A DNA stretch of 39,667 nucleotides from Clostridiaceae bacterium. Its GTDB lineage: Bacteria > Bacillota > Clostridia > Saccharofermentanales > DTU023. The position numbers and the translations under genes are program-made. The notes below the pieces were generated by a model, which saw only the letters and a program-made list of their open reading frames with translations, was not told where the DNA came from and searched no databases. Positions within the stretch are counted from its first letter, which is position 1. Every line of letters starts with the position of its first letter. The stretch is from positions 1 to 39,667 of the forward strand of contig DUPJ01000022.1 of NCBI GenBank assembly GCA_012838355.1, written 5' to 3'. This document shows positions 379 through 10,998 of this stretch, in pieces.

Positions 379-386
379 CGTTGCCG

Positions 387-809
387 ATGTCAAGCGATAA
401 CAACAAAAACGCGCCGCGTTTTATCAGCCGCCGGGACTTTCTGATTTTGGCGGTCATCCTTGTGTTTGCACTCGTCTGGTTTTTCTCGGCGAGATCTGTA
501 CCTGCCGATGTGTCGACTCAGGCAGTGATTACGATTGATCAGGTTGAGGTCGCCCGCATTGATTTAAAGGCCGGTGAACCGGAGGCATTTTCATTTTCCG
601 AGCGGCCTGCCGTGCATTTTCAGCGCTACGAGGACGGATCGTTTGCGTTTGTAGAATCGGATTGTCCGGATAAAGTGTGTATTCGGGCCGGTAAGCTGAA
701 GATGCCGTATCACTATGCGGCATGTTTGCCGAATCTGGTCGTTGTTACGATAGAAACTGTTGGCGGCGCACCGACGGAGTCGATGCCGGAGGTGGATTTT
801 GTCTACTAA
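387..809 (+). CDS. NusG domain II-containing membrane-anchored protein (EetA-like)
   Basis: This 140-residue protein has one membrane segment near residues 16-35 after a basic N terminus, then an extracytoplasmic domain. The cysteine pattern CPDKVC (Cys93 and Cys98) followed by ACLPN (Cys113) is typical of the NusG_II family, which is unrelated in role to transcription factor NusG. Members of this family sit beside Gx-type membrane proteins, FMN-binding proteins and ApbE; I recall EetA of the Listeria flavin-based electron-transfer locus as one of them. The gene overlaps the next one by 11 bp, so they are translationally coupled. A TTG two codons upstream (381) is an alternative start, but the ATG fits the leaderless promoter. 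A role in passing electrons across the membrane is inferred from context. Confidence 0.72.
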   Translation: MSSDNNKNAPRFISRRDFLILAVILVFALVWFFSARSVPADVSTQAVITIDQVEVARIDLKAGEPEAFSFSERPAVHFQRYEDGSFAFVESDCPDKVCIRAGKLKMPYHYAACLPNLVVVTIETVGGAPTESMPEVDFVY

Positions 810-1398
810 TAAACCTACATTGTCATCCCATCAGACGATACGCAAGCTGACCATGACGGCCATCCTGTTTGCCATGGCGCTGGCATTGTCGTTGTTTGAA
901 TCGCTGCTGCCGCCCATTCCGTCTCCCGTTCCGTTGAAATACGGACTTTCGAATCTGGCCGTGATGTATGCGCTGTTCTTTCTGGGGCCGAAGCCGGCGT
1001 TTACGATTGCCGTGCTGAAGAGCACCTTCGTGATTATGACGCGCGGGCTTTTTGCCGGGCTTGTCAGCATGGGCGGCGGCCTGATGTCGGTTCTCGTGAT
1101 GTTTGTTCTGTATCAGATATCTAAACGCCGCATGTCCTATCTGCTGATTTCGGTCAGCGGTGCGATCTTCCATAATGCCGGCCAGCTATTTGTGGCGATG
1201 ATCATTTTGCAGCTTCCTCTGGCTTTCGGGTACATCATCCCGCTGATGGCGCTGACTGGCGTCGGTACAGGCATTCTGTCGGCCGTTTTGCTGAAGCTGA
1301 TTATTCCGGCGCTGGCCGCGATTCCGGGGCAGAGGATCTGGATGACGTTTGATGCCTCGTCGGATCACGATCAAGAGAGCAAAAACGGGAAGTTATAA
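799..1398 (+). CDS. Gx transporter family membrane protein (EetB-like; Hpre_diP_synt_I family)
   Basis: This 199-residue protein is made of five or six hydrophobic segments, with a hallmark N-terminal block PPIPSPVPLKYGLSNL and a MGGGLMS motif near residue 90. It belongs to the family once called heptaprenyl diphosphate synthase component I and now Gx transporter; EetB of flavin-based electron transfer is, as I recall, of this family. I chose the TTG at 799 because a strong GGAGGTGG Shine-Dalgarno lies at 788-795 and the start overlaps the end of the NusG_II gene; the longer frame from 760 would begin inside that gene with no ribosome site. The pairing with the NusG_II protein is conserved and suggests a membrane complex. 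Its exact activity (electron or quinone/flavin transfer) is not settled. Confidence 0.72.
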   Translation: MSTNKPTLSSHQTIRKLTMTAILFAMALALSLFESLLPPIPSPVPLKYGLSNLAVMYALFFLGPKPAFTIAVLKSTFVIMTRGLFAGLVSMGGGLMSVLVMFVLYQISKRRMSYLLISVSGAIFHNAGQLFVAMIILQLPLAFGYIIPLMALTGVGTGILSAVLLKLIIPALAAIPGQRIWMTFDASSDHDQESKNGKL

Positions 1399-1495
1399 GC
1401 GGAGGCATTTATGCGTTAAATAGTCGAATCTGCATCATCCGGAACAATGATTTTCTCTGTTCGTTCAGATGGTGACGTGAATCGGCTGTAAATGC

Positions 1496-1509
1496 TGCAA
1501 GCGCTTCCA
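1496..1509 (+). promoter_or_regulatory. LacI-family-type operator, distal copy
   Basis: The 14-mer TGCAAGCGCTTCCA matches the LacI/GalR-family operator pattern TGnAAnCGnTTnCA at every fixed base. It lies 98 bp upstream of a second perfect match (1594-1607) and in front of the FMN/FAD reductase gene. No regulator gene is in the window. Confidence 0.6.
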
Positions 1510-1593
1510 GTCATGTGCTGCGGCTTGTCCCGGTCTACTTCAATACCTTGAAATTGATCTTAAAAACGACGCTGTTTGTTTATGATTTTCTCC

Positions 1594-1607
1594 TGCAAGC
1601 GTTTGCA
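1594..1607 (+). promoter_or_regulatory. LacI-family-type operator, proximal copy overlapping the -35
   Basis: The 14-mer TGCAAGCGTTTGCA has perfect 5-bp arms and matches TGnAAnCGnTTnCA at every fixed base. It overlaps the proposed -35 hexamer TTGCAC (1603-1608), so a bound repressor would block RNA polymerase. Confidence 0.65.
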
Positions 1608-1631
1608 CGAGAAAGAGATTTATGCAATATT
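1603..1631 (+). promoter_or_regulatory. Probable promoter of the FMN/FAD reductase gene
   Basis: TTGCAC (1603-1608), a 17-bp spacer and AATATT (1626-1631) form a plausible sigma-A type promoter, about 30 nt before the start codon at 1663. The -10 match is moderate; the operator overlap and the spacing are the main support. Confidence 0.4.
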
Positions 1632-1662
1632 GTAGGAAAACAAACGAGGAGGAAAAATCTGA

Positions 1663-3702
1663 ATGTCAAGAAGAAAACTATTAGTGGCACTCTTTTTATG
1701 TGTGGCGCTTGCACTCGGATCGACGAGTGTCCTCTTAGCGGAGTCGAACACCTTCGAGGGAACAGGCCATGGCATGCAAGGCCCTATTACGGTCAGCATC
1801 AGTGTCGAAGAAGGCGAAATCACCGGGATTGAATTTCTGGAGTACTACGAAACGCCTAATATTGCGGCAGTAGCCAAAGAACGCATCCCGGAGTTGATTA
1901 TCGAACATCAGGCACTGGGGCTGGATGCAGTTGCAGGAGCGACGCTTACAAGCTTCGGCATTTTGAATGCGGTGGCCGATGCTGCGGAAAAAGCCGGCCT
2001 GGATGTAAAGGCGCTGCGAGACAATAAATACGCTCCAGAGCCTCAGGCAGACCAGACGTGGTCTGCGGATGTCCTGGTCATTGGCGGGGGAGGTGCCGGG
2101 TTTTCCGCAGCCGTTACCGCAGCACAGCAAGGTGCGGACGTCATTTTGATTGAAAAAGGCTCGGTCCTTGGCGGCAATACACTGGTAGCCGGGGCGGCTT
2201 ACAATGCCGTCGATCCTGATGCGCAATCTCACATGATCCTTTCGAGCGCACAAAGAGATACCATGAACAGCTATCTCGCCATGAACGAGTCAGATCCTGA
2301 ATTGATGCTGGATGAGCATCCTGAATGGACGCAGGTTCTGAACCAGGTTCAGGCCGACATCACTGAGTATTTTGAGGCAAATGAAGACAAAACCGTTGGT
2401 GAAGATGCGCCTGGCTTTGATTCAATTGCCATGCACATGTGGCAAATATACATTGGCGGGTTAAGACAGCTGAATGACGGATCGTGGATTGCCTCAAACT
2501 ATGACCTGGCAAAGGTTCTCGCGGAGCAGGCATTGCCTTCTCTGGAATGGATGGGAACGGTTGGGCTAAATCCAACGTATGGTGATGAGACGGCGGAAAG
2601 AGGACTGACAACAGTGCTTGGTGCCATGTGGCCGCGCACCCATTCTTTTATGTCAGGGGCAGAACGTATTCCGCAGCTGGCAAAAATCGCTGAAGAATTC
2701 AATGTCCAGATTTACACGGAAACAAGCGGAACTGCATTGCTGACCGATGAAGACGGCAGGGTCGTCGGCGCAAAAGCGGTAATGGCAGACGGTACCGAGA
2801 TTACCATTAATACATCAAAAGGCGTTGTTCTTGCCACGGGCGGATACTGCGCCAATCCAGGCATGGTTAAGGAATACGATATGTATTGGGGCGAGGACCT
2901 TTCGGACCGGACCTTATCTACAAATATGGGAACCAATGAGGGTGATGGCATCCTCATGGCAATGGAAGCTGGTGCGGATGTAACCGGTATGGAAATCGCC
3001 CAGATGATGCCTTCGTCCTCTCCCGTCAAAGGCACAATGACTGACGGTATGTGGGGCGATGCTTCCGAACAGATCTGGATTGATGGCCACGGCAATCGTT
3101 TCGTGAACGAGTATGCGGAACGCGATGTGCTGGCAAAAGCGTCACTGGCACTTGAAGATGGCATTTTCTACATCATTTACGCCGGCAGAGGTGAGCGGAA
3201 CAATCCGACGCAGCTGCTCACAGGTACCGAGTTGAATGAATGGGTAAAACCAATGGTGGAAAATGGCCATGTCTGGGCCGGATCAACGCTGGCTGAATTG
3301 GCTGAAGCAACGAAAACACCTGCCGCAGGCGTTGCACCGGCGTTCACAGAAGAAGCCCTGCGGGCCACTATTGAAAGATACAATGAATTTGTCATGAATC
3401 AGCATGATGACGATTTTGGCAGAGAAGTAATCGCCGGCGGGATCGATCTTGAAACGTTCGAGGCTGATCCTGACACGTACATTTTTATCAGCCCTAGGAA
3501 ATCGTCACTTCACCACACTATGGGTGGCGTCGTAATTGATACTGACACACGCGTCCTGCGCGCCGATGGATCGCCGATCGAAGGCCTGTGGGCAGCTGGC
3601 GAAGTCACCGGTGGCATTCATGGAGGCAATCGCCTTGGCGGCAATGCAATCGCTGACATCTTCACATTTGGTCGGATTGCCGGGATGAATGCTGTCGAGT
3701 AA
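1663..3702 (+). CDS. Secreted FMN-binding/FAD-dependent reductase (fumarate/urocanate reductase-like flavoprotein)
   Basis: The 679-residue protein begins with a Sec signal peptide (residues 1-26, basic start then a long hydrophobic run). Residues about 30-112 form an FMN-binding domain with DAVAGATLTS at 88-97; Thr94 is the expected site of covalent FMN attachment by ApbE. From residue 135 a FAD_binding_2 flavoprotein follows, with the dinucleotide motif GGGGAG at 141-146, RFVNEYAERD at 479-488 and HHTMGG at 617-622, both matching the active-site regions of soluble fumarate reductases, and a C-terminal FAD loop rich in Gly. There is no haem domain. Known relatives reduce fumarate, urocanate or other alkenes outside the membrane as terminal electron acceptors; the substrate here cannot be read from sequence. 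The start has a GAGGAGG ribosome site at 1646-1652. A terminator follows. Confidence 0.88.
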   Translation: MSRRKLLVALFLCVALALGSTSVLLAESNTFEGTGHGMQGPITVSISVEEGEITGIEFLEYYETPNIAAVAKERIPELIIEHQALGLDAVAGATLTSFGILNAVADAAEKAGLDVKALRDNKYAPEPQADQTWSADVLVIGGGGAGFSAAVTAAQQGADVILIEKGSVLGGNTLVAGAAYNAVDPDAQSHMILSSAQRDTMNSYLAMNESDPELMLDEHPEWTQVLNQVQADITEYFEANEDKTVGEDAPGFDSIAMHMWQIYIGGLRQLNDGSWIASNYDLAKVLAEQALPSLEWMGTVGLNPTYGDETAERGLTTVLGAMWPRTHSFMSGAERIPQLAKIAEEFNVQIYTETSGTALLTDEDGRVVGAKAVMADGTEITINTSKGVVLATGGYCANPGMVKEYDMYWGEDLSDRTLSTNMGTNEGDGILMAMEAGADVTGMEIAQMMPSSSPVKGTMTDGMWGDASEQIWIDGHGNRFVNEYAERDVLAKASLALEDGIFYIIYAGRGERNNPTQLLTGTELNEWVKPMVENGHVWAGSTLAELAEATKTPAAGVAPAFTEEALRATIERYNEFVMNQHDDDFGREVIAGGIDLETFEADPDTYIFISPRKSSLHHTMGGVVIDTDTRVLRADGSPIEGLWAAGEVTGGIHGGNRLGGNAIADIFTFGRIAGMNAVE

Positions 3703-3732
3703 AGCCTGCTGAAGCATTGCAATTTTTAACTG

Positions 3733-3760
3733 CATGATGCAGGAAGGCCTCCTCCGGGGG
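3733..3760 (+). terminator. Intrinsic terminator after the FMN/FAD reductase
   Basis: GAAGGCC (3733-3739) pairs with GGCCTTC (3750-3756), with further pairs inside the loop, and is followed by TTTT at 3757-3760. It lies 30 bp after the stop codon. Confidence 0.8.
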
Positions 3761-3774
3761 GCCTTCTTTTCGGT

Positions 3775-3999
3775 GTGCCGGGCATGGCCAGCTTCTACGA
3801 CGAGTTTGCCGATATGTTGCCGCTGCCGCCGATTCCTTTGAGTTATGTAAGACGTGCTTTGAAATGCCTATGGTCTCAGCATAATTTACTTGGACGAATG
3901 CCGCTGCTGCGCGCGTTGCGCAGAGCTTGCCAACCGCCCGGTGCTCGTCGCAGGCCCCGCGTATGTCTTCACCGTCTGCGATATCAGGGAATGAATTGA
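3775..3999 (+). pseudogene. Possible decayed coding remnant, unrecognised
   Basis: Two overlapping frames look more coding-like than chance. One runs from a GTG at 3775 and reads 74 codons. The other covers 3863-3994 and ends CCARCAELANRPVLVAG... with a cysteine cluster and a natural-looking stop. Neither has a ribosome site, and both lie between terminators of convergent genes. This may be two pieces of a frameshifted gene. I do not recognise the family and cannot exclude chance. Confidence 0.25.
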
Positions 4000-4097
4000 T
4001 ACATTTAAAACTGTTGATGAAAACTGCATTTACGTAAATTTGCCGTTATGAGAAACAGAAAAATTTTCCCCCCGCATGAAGCACCATATCGGTAAAT

Positions 4098-4143
4098 AAA
4101 AAGGAGCTGACTCCACTCTTGCGAGCAATTTGAAGTCAGCTCC
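4098..4143 (-). terminator. Intrinsic terminator of the second reductase gene (minus strand)
   Basis: GGAGCTGACT (4103-4112) and AGTCAGCTCC (4134-4143) form a perfect 10-bp stem. On the minus strand the stem is followed by TTTTT (complement of 4098-4102). It lies about 107 bp after the stop codon at 4250. Confidence 0.8.
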
Positions 4144-4249
4144 CGGCTTATTACCGTTATTGTTCAGCAGCACATCCGCAAAGGTTTCCCCGTCCTACCT
4201 TTCTCGCTTCAGTAATTTAAGGGGCCGCGGTACACACGCCGAAACGGCC

Positions 4250-6433
4250 TTAATCCTGCAGACCCGCCTCGGCCATGGCAGCTGTCAGTGCTTCCAGAAA
4301 GGCTTCACTCGAAACCGTTGCACCTGAAATGGCATCCAGATCCGCACTTTGTTGTTCCAGTGCCTGCTGAATCAGTTCTTCCATGGCAACATCACCGATA
4401 CCTGCCGTCTCCTCACTCTTTGACACGACAATGGCAACCATTTCTCCGTCAGAGACGGTGACTTCAATCGCGATCGGTCCATACAGGCCATTTTGCGAAA
4501 TGGCGCTGAACACTTCACCTTCAACTGCATCACTTTCAGTTTCAACTTCGGGAGATATCTCTTCCTCTTCTTCCAGCCCCCCAAAATAGATGTCATTGGA
4601 CATTAATTCGAGCGGGCTGATTTCAACTTCCTTTGTTCCGGCGAATTCCGGATTCAGCTCAGTGCTGGCCGTTGCCATACCATTCTCATCGACTGATGCT
4701 GCGGATCTGCCCGCGATATAGCCGCTTGTCATAACACGGCCGAAACCATGAATACGCATGCCCGCACTGCTCTCGCCACAGGCAAAGAGACCGGGAATCA
4801 GTTCACCGTGGATGTCATATACCTGCATGTTTCCGGCGACACGAAGTCCGGCATAGGTATCATGCAGATTGGGTGTTGCCCAGGCAGCGTAGAACGGGCC
4901 ATTTTCAATCTTATAGCCGAGCGTCTTTTTGCCCCAGTCTTCGTCGACACCAGCTTCAACAAACGAGTTGTAGCGTTCCACTGTTTCGACCAGAATCTCG
5001 GGATCCATCTTTACATCTTCGTAATATTTGTTGACGACCAGTTCTGCAAGCTCTTCCAGCGTGTCTGCCTTGAAGCAATAACCGTTATCGTAGTCGACGA
5101 TGCCCTGCTCCATTGCATATTCATTGCGGTCCACCGCATCCTGATCAAAGATCGCCCAGAGCGGTCCACCGACACGGCGTGCATTGCCGTCGCCTTCTTC
5201 ATCGATGACGACACTTTGAAGAGCCGTATTAAAGTATTCGTAACTGTCATACGAGTACTTTCCGCCAGCGCCTTTATCCTCGTTGCCCGGGCGGTTTCCC
5301 AGCATGTTGACAACAATCATGCTGTCGTAATCCGGCGAGATGCCGTTCGCTACGACCAGGGGCCAGATCTTGCTTTCTTCTGTGTATCCGCCGCCATAGC
5401 CGTAACGGCAACCGAAACGGTTTGCCATCGTAATCTGATGACCGCCGTGCTGCATGAACGCAGCAAGGCTTCCGAGGGAGGCGCCGACTTCCATCGCGGC
5501 CAGTTCGCCAGAAGCATCTTGGTCAGAGAACGGCATTCCCGATAATCCGTCATATTCGGGGCCAAGGCGGGGGTCAAACATGGTGCGGTACCATACGTTG
5601 CCGATGCCGCCGCCGGTAGCGATGACCACACCTTTATTGGCTTTGACTGAGACATTTTCTCTGGTTTCCTCAATGTTTCCATCATCCCAATGTGATTTGA
5701 GCGGCTCTGTCTCACCCGGTAAAATGGTTGGCGTATAGCTTGCTTCAACACCGAGCACACGACCGCTTGCACCGCCTTCGCGGAAAATCGTGTCCATGTG
5801 GTAGTTCATTAAGAACAAAGCGCCCTGATCGCGAAGTGAGCGCTCGAGTGGACGAGTTACGCCAAGACCTGCGGAACCGCGTCCCGACACGTCATCGACG
5901 ATTCCCTCAGCATCCGTATATGTCCAGCGCGGTACACTTTCCGGCTCGGTAAAACCGTCCAGAATGTAGTTTTGCTGTGTCGGTTCTGTATCGCGCAATT
6001 TCAGACCATTATCCAGAAAAAATGCGAACGCTTCCGCCATGCTGTTGGCGACCGAACGGACCACTTCCGTATCATTCAAACGGGTAGCCAGTGTGATACC
6101 ACTCGTGTGATCCACATAGTACTGGTCGGCTGAATCTTCAATGCCATACTCTGCCTGAATCTCTGTTCCTGCACCGCTGTGAAGATTGCCGCCGCTGACG
6201 GCCGCGTGCCCGCCAACTTCCCAATTGGCTTCCACCAGGATGACGGAGGCTCCGGCCTCCATTGCTTTCAATGCTGCCGGTAAACCGGATCCGCCGGCTC
6301 CGATTACAACGACGTCCGCTTCATAGTCCCATTGTGGTTCGTCTTCTGCTGCGTACAGGCTGATTCCCATCATGCTGACCAGAAGGGTCAGAATAAGTAG
6401 GAAACATCCTATACGCTTTTTTGTGTTTTTCAT
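4250..6433 (-). CDS. Secreted FAD-dependent reductase with C-terminal FMN-binding domain
   Basis: The 727-residue protein starts with a Sec signal peptide (residues 1-29). A FAD_binding_2 domain begins at about 38 (VVVIGAGGSG, 41-50) and closes near residue 600 with GESSAGMRIHGFGR, a fumarate reductase/ketosteroid dehydrogenase-like FAD loop. After an acidic linker near 625-645 (rich in Glu and Ser) comes a C-terminal FMN-binding domain ending in DAISGATVSS at 700-709, with Thr706 the likely covalent FMN site. Domain order is the reverse of the 1663 gene. The usual GxRFxNE active-site signature is altered to GNRPGNE, so the substrate probably differs. The start has AAGGAG 8 nt upstream. ApbE, encoded at 9910, would modify it after export. 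The substrate is unknown. Confidence 0.87.
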   Translation of the reverse strand: MKNTKKRIGCFLLILTLLVSMMGISLYAAEDEPQWDYEADVVVIGAGGSGLPAALKAMEAGASVILVEANWEVGGHAAVSGGNLHSGAGTEIQAEYGIEDSADQYYVDHTSGITLATRLNDTEVVRSVANSMAEAFAFFLDNGLKLRDTEPTQQNYILDGFTEPESVPRWTYTDAEGIVDDVSGRGSAGLGVTRPLERSLRDQGALFLMNYHMDTIFREGGASGRVLGVEASYTPTILPGETEPLKSHWDDGNIEETRENVSVKANKGVVIATGGGIGNVWYRTMFDPRLGPEYDGLSGMPFSDQDASGELAAMEVGASLGSLAAFMQHGGHQITMANRFGCRYGYGGGYTEESKIWPLVVANGISPDYDSMIVVNMLGNRPGNEDKGAGGKYSYDSYEYFNTALQSVVIDEEGDGNARRVGGPLWAIFDQDAVDRNEYAMEQGIVDYDNGYCFKADTLEELAELVVNKYYEDVKMDPEILVETVERYNSFVEAGVDEDWGKKTLGYKIENGPFYAAWATPNLHDTYAGLRVAGNMQVYDIHGELIPGLFACGESSAGMRIHGFGRVMTSGYIAGRSAASVDENGMATASTELNPEFAGTKEVEISPLELMSNDIYFGGLEEEEEISPEVETESDAVEGEVFSAISQNGLYGPIAIEVTVSDGEMVAIVVSKSEETAGIGDVAMEELIQQALEQQSADLDAISGATVSSEAFLEALTAAMAEAGLQD

Positions 6434-6526
6434 CCTTGTTGCTCCTTGTCTTGTCGTATGCTTCTTGTTTGTTCCTGCGAGAAAGGCTTGTCACGATCAC
6501 AATTTTCTTCTGCGACATGATCATGC

Positions 6527-6556
6527 TTTATGCAGGCTATCATTGTTTTATGCCAA
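6527..6556 (-). promoter_or_regulatory. Probable promoter of the second reductase gene
   Basis: On the minus strand TTGGCA (complement of 6551-6556), an 18-bp spacer and CATAAA (complement of 6527-6532) form a sigma-A-like promoter about 95 nt before the start codon. Just upstream, 6558-6571 carries a partial LacI-like half site (CGTTTGC on the minus strand) matching half of the 1594 operator; only 7 of 10 fixed bases fit overall. Confidence 0.35.
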
Positions 6557-6611
6557 AGGCAAACGTTATAAACCAGCCTTAAATGTCCCGTTGCTGACGA
6601 GTATCTGTCCG

Positions 6612-6620
6612 CCCCCCCCC
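6612..6620. repeat. Homopolymer tract of nine C
   Basis: An uninterrupted run of nine cytosines lies in the divergent intergenic region upstream of the second reductase. Such tracts can vary in length by slippage. It is outside the proposed promoter, so an effect on expression is only possible. Confidence 0.8.
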
Positions 6621-6865
6621 AATTGTTTCGCAGCAACATCGGAGTCCGCCGAAGAGAATATGCTCATTGATCCATGCTCGATCCTTGTTTAAAGTGACTC
6701 GAGTTTTTTATGTCACGGGTATCGTCTTAATCACAGTGGTTGATATGCTGAAACGATTTTGCGTGTCGATCTGCCGCATGCCGAACGTTACGCGCGGAGG
6801 TGCGAGAGGTACCCCGGTTAACGGATGATCGGGGTTTGCCCGATTTCACATGAGATGATGCGCAT

Positions 6866-6978
6866 GTCGTTTTGCAGGCTGGATATGCTGGCTTGCCGCG
6901 CTTTCGGGACAGAGGATCCGGATGACGCTTGAAAGCTCGCCGAATGAGCATCAGGGCAACCAAGGCAACGATCGCTAG
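6866..6978 (+). pseudogene. Remnant of the 3' end of a second Gx/EetB-like gene
   Basis: The stretch 6891-6960 aligns without gaps to 1311-1380 of the Gx family gene; I count 52 of 70 identical bases, with 34 of 40 in the first part. Read in the same frame it gives LAALSGQRIRMTLESS against LAAIPGQRIWMTFDAS, and it ends at a TAG (6976-6978) after the same number of residues as the intact protein. Upstream, similarity continues to about 6866 but needs a small gap that breaks the frame. No start or upstream part is left. It is therefore the tail of a lost second copy. Confidence 0.75.
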
Positions 6979-6987
6979 TTTGTTTAT

Positions 6988-7002
6988 TAACACATAGTGT
7001 TA
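6988..7002. promoter_or_regulatory. 15-bp inverted repeat, candidate operator
   Basis: TAACAC-ATA-GTGTTA is a perfect 6-bp-arm inverted repeat, located about 15-30 bp upstream of the -10-like element GATAAAAT (7016-7023) of the repeat protein gene. The spacing fits a regulator site in the promoter. I cannot assign a regulator family. Confidence 0.4.
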
Positions 7003-7015
7003 TTTCTTGTAATCT

Positions 7016-7023
7016 GATAAAAT
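7016..7023 (+). promoter_or_regulatory. Candidate -10 element of the tandem-repeat protein gene
   Basis: GATAAAAT at 7016-7023 in an AT-rich patch, 42 nt before the ATG at 7065. No good -35 is visible at 16-18 bp, so the promoter may depend on an activator or on the inverted repeat region. Confidence 0.35.
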
Positions 7024-7064
7024 CGCTCTTGGTAAAAATACCACCCTCAGGAGGAACAACACAA

Positions 7065-9008
7065 ATGCAAAAAAAGGCAGCCCTGTTGCTGGCTTTGGCG
7101 ATGTTATTCTCCTGCCTGGCGCTGACCTCACCGGTCGCCCACGCAGAAGAAGCCGAAGCAAAGCTGGGTCTTGGCATCGTCACGGACGTGTCAGGTTCCA
7201 CGCCGGCAACCGCAGATGCAGAGGGTCGAGCGAAAGTGGACACGACGATTGTCGCTGTTCTGCTTGCCGCCGACGACACGATTGTCGATGTCAAAATCGA
7301 CACAGTACAGCCGTATACGTTTTTCAATTCGACTGGCGTTGTAACGGAGAAGAAAGATTTCCGCTCGAAACGCGAACTGAAAGACGACTACGGCATGATC
7401 GCAGCTTCGCAGATTGGCAAAGAATGGTACGAGCAGGCTGAAGCGCTCGAATCCTACATGATCGGCAAGACTGTTGCCGACGTGATGGCCATGGAAGTGA
7501 ACGAGGAATTCCGTCCGACCGATGCCGACCTCATGGCATCCGTCACCATTCATGTAGACACGTACCTGCTGGCCCTGGAAAAAGCCGTGCAGAATGCAGT
7601 AGCTCTGGGCAGCAAGGCGGACAATACGCTCGGTCTAGCCATTACGGCGAACAACAATCGTTCAGCCGATGCAGACGGTGAAACGGATGGCGTGGCACAG
7701 GCATACCTGCATGTCGCCGCAGCCAGTGTCGATGCGGACGGTGTGATCACCGCCGCGGTCATTGACGCGCTTCAGCCGACTGTCACGTTCGATGCAGAAG
7801 GTCAGATCACGTCAGATGTAGCGGCCGAAGTCAAAACCAAGAACGAACTCGGTGCCGATTACGGCATGGTTAATGCTTCCGGCATTCAGAAAGAGTGGTA
7901 TGAGCAGGCCAGCGCCTTTGCCCAGTATGCCGTCGGAAAGACGAAGGCTGAGCTGGAGGCACTGCCCGTGGCAGACGGCAAAACGACTGATGCCGATCTG
8001 CTCGCTTCTGTGACCGTGACCGTGACCGACATGCAGACAGCCATGATGAAAACAGTGGATGACGCGGTCAGTATGACTTCCGGCGTCAAAACCGGTCTGG
8101 CCGTTTTAACCTCGATTGCAGGCTCAGCATCTGCGGACGGTGAAACAGACGGGCGTGCCAAAGTGGACATCACGATGGTCGCTGTTCTCGTTGACGAAGA
8201 CGGTACCATTCTCGATTTCAAGCTTGACTTCCTGCAGCCCTACACAAGCTGGGATGCTGAAGGACACGTGATTGAGAAGAAAGAATTCAAGACAAAGCGC
8301 GAGCTCGGTGACGACTATGGCATGCGTGCCGCATCGGCCATCGGTCTTGAATGGTATGAGCAGGCAGACGCATTTGAGCAGTACGTCATCGGCAAAACGC
8401 TGGAAGATGTTCTCGCCTTAGAACTGGACGAAGAATACCGCCCGGCTGACGTCGATCTGGCGGCATCCGTTACGATTCATGTCGATAGCTATGTGGCGGC
8501 TCTGGAAAAAGCCGTGACGACAGCCAAGGTGCTCGGTGCCTCGGCAGAAGATGAGCTGGGACTCGGTGCGGTTGCGCATAACAACCGTTCTGCGGATGCC
8601 GGCGACGAGGATGGCCTGGCCGAATCGTACGTCCATTTCGGTGCCTTGACATTCAACACCGAAGGCATTGTGACCTCAGCCATCATCGATGCCAGCCAGG
8701 CTCGTGTGTCCTTTGATGCCGAAGGCAAGATCACGTCGGATATCACCGTGAATCCGCTGACGAAGCTGGAGCTCGGCGATGCATATGGCATGGCCATTGC
8801 ATCCGAAATCGGCAGGGAATGGCACGAACAGGCCGATGCGTACGCAGACTTCATCGTCGGCAAAACGCAGGACGAAGTGGTGACCCTGGTCAATAACGAT
8901 GGCAAGTCGGCGGATATCGACCTGTTTGCGCATGTCACCGTCACCATTGATGAAATGACGAAGATCGTGAGCAAAGGATACGAGGACGCATTTCTGGCGG
9001 TCCGCTGA
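7065..9008 (+). CDS. Secreted protein of four tandem ~155-residue repeats, FMN-binding-like
   Basis: The 647-residue product has a Sec signal peptide (residues 1-27, cleavage likely after AHA). The rest is four repeats starting near residues 34, 189, 343 and 498. Repeats 1 and 3 resemble each other most, as do 2 and 4. Each has DYGM or AYGM, then S/G-x-x-KEWYEQA-like and GKT motifs, and ends with DLxASVT followed by an amphipathic helix. That ending resembles the flavinylation motif of FMN-binding domains (DAVAGATLTS), with Ser in place of the modified Thr in repeats 1-3 and His in repeat 4. I infer a distant FMN-binding relative that carries several redox or binding units outside the cell; it could also be a structural repeat. 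The ATG at 7065 follows AGGAGG at 7049-7054. A strong terminator ends the gene. Confidence 0.8.
   Translation: MQKKAALLLALAMLFSCLALTSPVAHAEEAEAKLGLGIVTDVSGSTPATADAEGRAKVDTTIVAVLLAADDTIVDVKIDTVQPYTFFNSTGVVTEKKDFRSKRELKDDYGMIAASQIGKEWYEQAEALESYMIGKTVADVMAMEVNEEFRPTDADLMASVTIHVDTYLLALEKAVQNAVALGSKADNTLGLAITANNNRSADADGETDGVAQAYLHVAAASVDADGVITAAVIDALQPTVTFDAEGQITSDVAAEVKTKNELGADYGMVNASGIQKEWYEQASAFAQYAVGKTKAELEALPVADGKTTDADLLASVTVTVTDMQTAMMKTVDDAVSMTSGVKTGLAVLTSIAGSASADGETDGRAKVDITMVAVLVDEDGTILDFKLDFLQPYTSWDAEGHVIEKKEFKTKRELGDDYGMRAASAIGLEWYEQADAFEQYVIGKTLEDVLALELDEEYRPADVDLAASVTIHVDSYVAALEKAVTTAKVLGASAEDELGLGAVAHNNRSADAGDEDGLAESYVHFGALTFNTEGIVTSAIIDASQARVSFDAEGKITSDITVNPLTKLELGDAYGMAIASEIGREWHEQADAYADFIVGKTQDEVVTLVNNDGKSADIDLFAHVTVTIDEMTKIVSKGYEDAFLAVR
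7164..9005 (+). repeat. Four in-frame tandem repeats (ABAB arrangement)
   Basis: Unit boundaries are near 7164, 7629, 8091 and 8556, giving unit lengths of 465, 462, 465 and about 450 bp. Units 1 and 3 share VDxTxVAVL and a QPYT block, while units 2 and 4 share NNRSADA and a VxFDAEGxITSD block. This suggests duplication of a two-domain unit, itself formed by an older duplication. Confidence 0.85.
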
Positions 9009-9213: not shown

Positions 9214-9717
9214 TCAGCGACCTTTCTGCAGACGGCCGGCAACACCGGATGCGTGCATGGTCTTATATAGGAAATAAGCCATGAGGGCACCCAGAATGCC
9301 TTGGATGAGGTTGATGCCGAAACTGGTCAGGGCAACGGCTGCGCCATAGAGCACGGTCTCATAGAGAAAGTAGCCGGCTGCCATCAGTATGCCGCCTCCC
9401 AGGGCAGAGGGAAGGGGACGACGTGTTTTTTTGAAAAGGAACGCGGCCAGCCATCCGGCAAGTCCTTTGACGATGAGGGTGACGGGCGCGTAATGCGCAT
9501 AGCCGGATAGCAGGTCTGCCAGCATTGAACCGAGCCCGCCTGTGAGTGCTCCGGCCAGCTGGCCGAACAACAGAGACGAGGTCAGCAAGATGGCGTCGCC
9601 GAGATTGAAGTAACCGTGCACGGCCGGTATCGGAATCTGAATAACAATGGTGGCGATTGTTGTCAGGGCGATCATCAGGCTGACGAGGGTCAGCGTTCTG
9701 GCATCCGGTCTTCGCAT
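9214..9717 (-). CDS. ECF transporter S component, riboflavin-type family
   Basis: This 167-residue membrane protein has about five or six hydrophobic segments. The motifs HGYFNLGDAILL near residue 34 and GGLGSMLADLLSGY near 60, followed by a YAPVTLIVKGL block, are typical of the ECF riboflavin-type substrate-binding (S) component family. S components work with a shared energizing module (EcfT, EcfA, EcfA'), which is not in this window. The ATG at 9717 is preceded by GGGAGGG on the minus strand; the longer frame to 9807 lacks such a site. It is divergent from apbE, so it probably supplies flavin to the system, like FmnA-type proteins in flavin-based electron transfer. No FMN riboswitch is visible upstream. 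Another vitamin or precursor as substrate is possible. Confidence 0.75.
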   Translation of the reverse strand: MRRPDARTLTLVSLMIALTTIATIVIQIPIPAVHGYFNLGDAILLTSSLLFGQLAGALTGGLGSMLADLLSGYAHYAPVTLIVKGLAGWLAAFLFKKTRRPLPSALGGGILMAAGYFLYETVLYGAAVALTSFGINLIQGILGALMAYFLYKTMHASGVAGRLQKGR

Positions 9718-9763
9718 ATCACCCTCCCACGAACGTTCGGATCGATTTTTGCGATGCACATCC

Positions 9764-9792
9764 ACCATACACCGCATCAATGGCAAAGACAA
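9764..9792 (-). promoter_or_regulatory. Probable promoter of the ECF S component gene
   Basis: On the minus strand TTGTCT (complement of 9787-9792), a 17-bp spacer and TATGGT (complement of 9764-9769) lie about 47 nt before the ATG at 9717. The palindrome CGAACGTTCG (9730-9739) is in the resulting leader. Confidence 0.45.
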
Positions 9793-9863
9793 TTCGCCGG
9801 ATTCCATGCCCGATTCTTCTGCTGAAAACGTGTCTTTGCAGACAGTTCGCGAATCCGGTCCTG

Positions 9864-9872
9864 TGCTATAGT
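9864..9872 (+). promoter_or_regulatory. Extended -10 promoter element of apbE operon
   Basis: TGCTATAGT contains TGn followed by the -10 hexamer TATAGT (9867-9872). No good -35 is seen, as expected for an extended -10 promoter. Transcription would start near 9879. Confidence 0.5.
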
Positions 9873-9886
9873 TGAAAACGATATCC
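9873..9886 (+). promoter_or_regulatory. cre-like site at the apbE transcription start
   Basis: TGAAAACGATATCC fits the CcpA catabolite-responsive consensus TGWAANCGNTNWCA at all fixed positions but the last. It would cover the predicted start site. One match of this quality could occur by chance. Confidence 0.25.
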
Positions 9887-9909: not shown

Positions 9910-10998
9910 ATGTCATTTTATAAAAAACTCCTTGCCGCGCTGATGATAGCGGCCTTCCTGCTCCTGTCTGCCGCCTGTGCCACGACGCCGTCGGCATCGG
10001 CCGGGGCTCCGGAAGAAGCGAGCACCCTGACGCGCTACCGCACATCGTTCATCGGCGTATTTGATACGCTGACCACCGTCATTGGCTACGCGGAAGATGA
10101 GGAAACATTCAATGAATACTCGGCGTTTATCAAGGACAAGCTGACCTTTTATCACCGGCTGTTCAATACGTATGACGCCTTTGAGGGCGTGGTGAACCTG
10201 AAGGTGGTCAATGAGACGGCCGGCAGCGAACCGGTCAAAGTGGATCCGGAAATTATCGCACTGCTGAAGCAGAGCCTGAGGGCAAATGAGCTGAGCGGCG
10301 GCAATGTCAATGTTGCGTTCGGCGCCGTGCTGAAGATCTGGCATGAGTACCGCGAAACGGGTATCAACGCACCGGAGCGCGCGAGCGTCCCGGAACGATC
10401 CGATCTCGAAGCCGCCGCGTTGCATACGGATATTCGCGACATTGTGATCGATGAAGAGGCGTCAACCGTCTATTTTCGAGATCCGGACCTGCGTCTCGAT
10501 GTCGGTTCCGGTGCCAAAGGATATGCGACGGAGCAGGCGGCACTTCAGGTAGAGGCAATGGGACTGCGCTCGGCCGTTATTTCGGTTGGCGGCAACATCC
10601 GCACAATCGGGCGGCGGCCGGATTCGGATACACCCTGGCGCATCGGCATCCAGAATCCGGACAAAACGGTGGAAAATCAGGTGATTGAGATTCTGGCCGT
10701 CGAGGACATGTCCGTCGTGACATCGGGCGTGTACGAGCGTTACTATGAAGTGGACGGCGTGCGCTACCACCACATCATTGATCCGGAAACCCTGTTTCCC
10801 GAAAAAACATTCGATGCTGTGACGATTGTCACGCCGAGCTCAGCACTGGCGGACTCCTTTACAACGGCGCTTTTCAATATGGATCTGGAAGACGGCATGG
10901 CCCTGATTGAGTCGCTTGAAAACGCCGAAGCCATGTGGCTGACCGGTGACGAACGCCGAATGACGGACGGGTTCGACAGGCATATTGCGAAGGATTAG
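9910..10998 (+). CDS. apbE: FAD:protein FMN transferase (ApbE)
   Basis: This 362-residue enzyme transfers FMN from FAD to Thr (or Ser) in FMN-binding domains, outside the membrane. It has an N-terminal lipoprotein-like signal with Cys23 (LLSAAC; the -3 residue is Ser, less usual). Family motifs are present: GNVNVAFGAVLKIW near residue 130, DVGSGAKGYATEQAA near 200, ISVGGNIRTIGRRP, VTSGVYERYYE, HHIIDPET near 292 and ADSFTTALFNM near 315, the last two supplying metal and FAD contacts. The usual HxIDPxTG lacks its Gly. It is the expected maturation enzyme for the reductases at 1663 and 4250. It heads an operon, 3 bp before the binding-protein gene. GAGG lies just upstream of the ATG. Confidence 0.93.
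   Translation: MSFYKKLLAALMIAAFLLLSAACATTPSASAGAPEEASTLTRYRTSFIGVFDTLTTVIGYAEDEETFNEYSAFIKDKLTFYHRLFNTYDAFEGVVNLKVVNETAGSEPVKVDPEIIALLKQSLRANELSGGNVNVAFGAVLKIWHEYRETGINAPERASVPERSDLEAAALHTDIRDIVIDEEASTVYFRDPDLRLDVGSGAKGYATEQAALQVEAMGLRSAVISVGGNIRTIGRRPDSDTPWRIGIQNPDKTVENQVIEILAVEDMSVVTSGVYERYYEVDGVRYHHIIDPETLFPEKTFDAVTIVTPSSALADSFTTALFNMDLEDGMALIESLENAEAMWLTGDERRMTDGFDRHIAKD

Follow-up and report, generated by a model that had tools for sequence, protein, structure and literature searches.

A decayed copy of the eetB 3' end points to insertion of two secreted reductase genes in an EET cluster

We found that the extracellular electron transfer (EET) cluster of a Clostridiaceae bacterium carries, upstream of its repeat-protein gene, a non-functional remnant of the 3' end of eetB, at least about 100 bp long. 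This decayed copy occupies positions 6867–6978 (also given as 6866–6978; 112 bases) on the forward strand of the window, by which we mean the whole 39,667-nucleotide stretch analysed here (assembly GCA_012838355.1, contig DUPJ01000022.1), and it ends in a stop codon at the homologous position. The intact copy of the duplicated tail was located at 1283–1398 on the same strand by a repeat finder and by alignments, and the tail duplication itself is certain. Two secreted reductase genes lie between the copies. The probable history, in our assessment, is that foreign reductase DNA entered once, at the eetB 3' end, duplicated the tail and left the downstream copy as a decaying remnant.

The cluster comprises eetA (381–809, forward strand; a NusG domain II protein, PF07009, E 1.5e-19), intact eetB (760–1398, forward; Hpre_diP_synt_I / ECF S-component-like, PF07456, E 1.8e-30), secreted flavin reductase 1 (1663–3702, forward; FMN_bind, PF04205, then FAD_binding_2, PF00890), secreted flavin reductase 2 (4250–6433, reverse; FAD_binding_2, PF00890, then FMN_bind, PF04205), the repeat-protein gene (7065–9008, forward), a riboflavin-type ECF S component (9214–9807, reverse; PF07155) and ApbE (9910–10998; PF02424). 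The genes by which we recognize a Listeria-type EET locus, eetA, eetB and ApbE, are all present (PF07009, PF07456 and PF02424), and eetB is the sole PF07456 match in its own 2.06-Mb genome. The repeat protein, the usual neighbour of eetB, contains four D.DL.A.VT repeats and gave no Pfam, NCBIfam or PDB sequence match; we take it to be PplA-like from its position and its repeats. It has four DL.A.VT repeats in 647 amino acids (7065–9005), compared with six in 975 amino acids in the sister genome (locus L036, 1333–4257). The ECF S component at 9214–9807 is missing from that place in the sister and so has the look of another lineage-specific change, the second in this cluster; no repeat-gene tail was found behind it. 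Fourteen identical bases, CCTGTGCTATAGTT, precede ApbE in both genomes (window 9860–9873; sister L036 4334–4347) and may represent a promoter −10 region. Neither an Rfam family nor a tRNA was found in the window, and thus no tRNA attachment site.

The similarity between the remnant and eetB is well above chance. Positions 1311–1380 and 6891–6960 match without gaps at exactly 52 of 70 bases, as an earlier sequence-only reading had estimated by hand, whereas the next best offset for this eetB 70-mer within 6400–7064 matches at 31 of 70. That reading had also proposed a gapped alignment with a shuffle control. Smith–Waterman alignment of 6434–7064 with 799–1662 gave a score of 40, which none of 500 dinucleotide-preserving shuffles reached (mean 12.2, maximum 17). 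Under a second scoring scheme with different gaps, the score was 43.5 (60 shuffles, maximum 21), and the alignment paired 6868–6968 with eetB 1284–1391. When the 70-mer was slid along both strands of the window and of 1,591,488 bases from other loci (seven loci identical with the window were left out, and some loci overlap one another), the best match elsewhere was 38 of 70; this runner-up is the genuine end of eetB in the sister genome. The repeat finder ranked the pair of eetB tail and remnant first, with 78% identity over 63 nt.

The reading frame of the remnant is intact from 6891 to a TAG at 6976–6978, which stands opposite the eetB TAA at 1396–1398 with an offset of 5580. From 6891 there are 28 codons and a stop in remnant and eetB alike, bearing out the earlier claim that the frame runs to a stop after an equal number of residues. 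Upstream of 6891 the frame is broken, and the alignment there takes two 2-base gaps. The 39-residue frame of the remnant had no Pfam match up to E 1. Such a negative is to be expected, since in eetB the PF07456 match stops at residue 179, close to where the duplicated tail begins.

The substitutions in the remnant show no sign of constraint. Across 29 codons, counting the stop, remnant and eetB differ at 14, 6 and 10 of the 29 first, second and third positions, respectively, and without a third-position excess the remnant can be taken as unconstrained. Across the 48 sites comparable with the sister, all three sequences agree at 25, only the sister differs at 14, only the remnant at 6 and only eetB at 1, and all differ at 2. 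The remnant thus has the substitution pattern of unconstrained DNA, with changes derived on its own branch (6 remnant-only compared with 1 eetB-only, from few sites). Over 16 codons, eetB and the remnant have three third-position differences, fewer than the nine between eetB and its sister counterpart; the tail copy therefore looks younger than the species split. These numbers are small but run in one direction, and they point to a remnant that was copied after the split from the sister and is no longer under selection.

The gene order of the sister indicates what stood at this site before. The genus comparison covers two genomes, the source and one sister, and the sister has the order eetA–eetB–repeat protein with no insert. 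By blastn against the sister contig, window positions 590–1351 and 7047–8879 align with nothing between, and the stretch between the aligned blocks is about 110 bp in the sister; the DNA at 1399–6866 is therefore an insertion relative to it. The stop of the remnant lies 86 bp before the repeat-protein ATG (the leader, 6979–7064) and in the sister the distance from the eetB stop to the repeat-protein ATG is 92 bp, so the remnant sits where eetB should end. The two leaders gave no alignment above shuffles outside the ribosome-binding site, and with that site included 20 of 300 shuffles reached the score; thus, position and not leader sequence supports this placement. A promoter consensus scan of 6434–7064 found none. 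Among the best 80 eetB loci of 383 relatives, eetB lies directly 5' of a PplA-like repeat gene in 32 (29 with eetA and 3 without an eetA match; the sister is one of the 32), ApbE is directly next to it in 24, 19 have another arrangement and in 5 the contig end is too near. The inserted flavoproteins have a match in one of the 80 loci, weak and at a distance of 8 kb. These data support the view that an eetB end formerly stood directly before the repeat-protein gene. No intermediate stage of insertion was seen in the two genus genomes.

The insert of about 5.5 kb places the two FMN_bind/FAD reductase genes between eetB and the repeat gene, and sequence comparison suggests a source outside the lineage for both. 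A search of 391 genomes of the class gave a best relative with 65% identity for reductase 1 and one with 57% for reductase 2, each from another family; E 1e-70 was passed by 9 of the 391 genomes for reductase 1 and E 1e-60 by 2 of the 391 for reductase 2, the source genome included in both counts. Neither is closely matched in the sister, which gave only partial matches of at most 52% identity (best E 1.7e-38 and 3.8e-24). GC3 is 0.53 and 0.54 in the reductase genes, the lowest of 18 compared, and 0.58–0.69 in 16 other window genes; their codon-usage distances of 6.56 and 5.0 fall inside the range of 2.76–8.82 and are not outlying. In NCBIfam, both proteins score best against the flavocytochrome c subfamily TIGR01813, short of its cut-off. 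Their closest relatives sit in different genomes, and the relative of reductase 2 adjoins a gene only about 32% like reductase 1, with no two close copies adjacent in the stretches compared; these data give no support for one joint transfer. FMN_bind proteins are common in the genus (17 matches in the source genome and 15 in the sister), which leaves loss in the sister as an alternative to transfer. The own genome holds no long DNA copy of the insert elsewhere, only short stretches of 70–86% identity, and a plasmid search with reductase 2 returned one distant match, from Salipiger (37.9%).

The spacers of the insert have features of their own. A 33-nt inverted repeat (73%; 4083–4163) with a 10-bp GGAGCTGACT/AGTCAGCTCC core lies between the convergent reductase genes and is perhaps a terminator of reductase 2. 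A run of nine Cs at 6612–6620, in the spacer upstream of reductase 2, may be a variable tract or a sequencing error. At 3819–3836, 18 bases resembling eetB failed the shuffle control, and a weak match between 1399–1662 and the antisense strand of reductase 1 (score 17, shuffle maximum 16.5) was taken as chance.

The most economical sequence of events that we can propose starts after the divergence from the sister: a segment of about 5.5 kb with the genes for two foreign secreted flavin reductases would have entered at the eetB 3' end, duplicating at least about 100 bp of the eetB tail. One tail would complete the intact upstream eetB, and the other would have been left behind on the distal side of the insert, where it has been decaying. 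One possible route is a single crossover between eetB and incoming DNA that carried an eetB tail, which would produce the same anatomy. Neither integrase, transposase nor terminal repeats were seen in the insert, which makes the proposed mechanism tentative. The insert shows no sign of an integrative element using a gene 3' end as its attachment site: there is no integrase or recombinase, both genes are reductases, and the spacer frames (3730–3999, 3863–3994, 6327–6692 and 6598–6828) have no convincing Pfam match, the sole one listed having E 0.24.

Other histories could also place an eetB tail before the repeat gene. The sequence-only reading had proposed that a whole unit of eetA–eetB and a secreted protein was duplicated and that the second eetAB was later lost save for its tail. 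Such a loss would leave the tail where we find it, and the part of the claim that places an eetB end before the repeat gene is borne out by the sister order and by the spacing; the duplication of a unit is not. The intact second eetA–eetB that it had suggested seeking in relatives did not appear, as none of the best 80 loci from 383 relatives, compared at the protein level with whole eetB, has a second eetB-like match. In the spacers 1399–1662, 3703–4249 and 6434–6866, neither strand matched eetA, eetB or the repeat gene better than shuffled sequence did, the remnant aside, so no residue of the eetB body or of a second repeat gene accompanies the tail. Moreover, reductase 1, the flavoprotein behind eetB, shows no relationship to the repeat protein by BLASTP (best E 1.4), and unit duplication takes more steps. 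We consider this history very unlikely, and the reading that proposed it is probably wrong on this point.

Slippage or unequal exchange could first have produced a short tandem copy of the eetB tail, with the reductases inserted between the tails later; this order would yield an identical anatomy and would suit an insert without mobile machinery. From the anatomy alone, a single crossover with tail-carrying DNA and an earlier tandem copy are indistinguishable here. However, the tandem-first order requires two events at one place, and no relative with a tandem tail was seen in the 80 loci, for which only protein matches to whole eetB were used; we regard it as unlikely. The genome is fragmented (183 contigs) and GC3 is lower in both reductase genes, as might be seen if 5.5 kb had been wrongly joined in the draft assembly. 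Yet the repeat at the joint, 78% over 63 nt, is too little to mislead an assembler, the own genome has other FMN_bind/FAD paralogues, and the remnant is itself a decayed biological copy, making a chimera highly improbable. A single insertion with tail duplication therefore stays our preferred reading, with the duplication route and a foreign donor as its presumptive parts.

The remnant shows where, and roughly when, two secreted reductases entered an EET cluster. The repeat-protein gene has been separated from eetAB and now lies beyond an opposite-strand gene, and the reductases may be flavinylated via the locus's own FAD exporter and ApbE. In the literature collection searched, no paper joined eetB, pseudogene and duplication. 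A bolder and quite doubtful generalization is that eet clusters may act as docking sites, at which recombination that preserves the gene end adds foreign extracellular reductases behind eetB, the remnant being the scar of one such event; if so, new electron acceptors would plug directly into the FAD exporter and ApbE. On a more sober view, the remnant is a real but ordinary evolutionary scar that leaves knowledge of the EET system unchanged.

Gene-end duplications left by integration or by single-crossover insertion are a general phenomenon. The present locus resembles them in having an intact gene at one edge, the truncated 3' part of that gene repeated at the other and foreign-looking genes between; it differs in that no recombinase or sharp att core is present and the copies have already diverged (78% over 63 nt). 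Like the Gram-positive EET locus of Listeria (eetA–eetB, PplA and FmnB/ApbE), it has eetA–eetB, a PplA-like repeat protein and ApbE, in an order found in relatives. In Listeria, according to PMC9973259, export of FAD depends on EetB, and so does the flavinylation of PplA by the ApbE-like FmnB. Unlike in the Listeria locus, two secreted reductases here separate eetB from the repeat gene, and a riboflavin-type ECF S component separates the repeat gene from ApbE. Both inserted genes carry FMN_bind and FAD_binding_2, as do flavinylated extracytosolic reductases of the fumarate-reductase-like kind. A difference is that the inserted genes sit within the eet cluster, between eetB and its usual neighbour.
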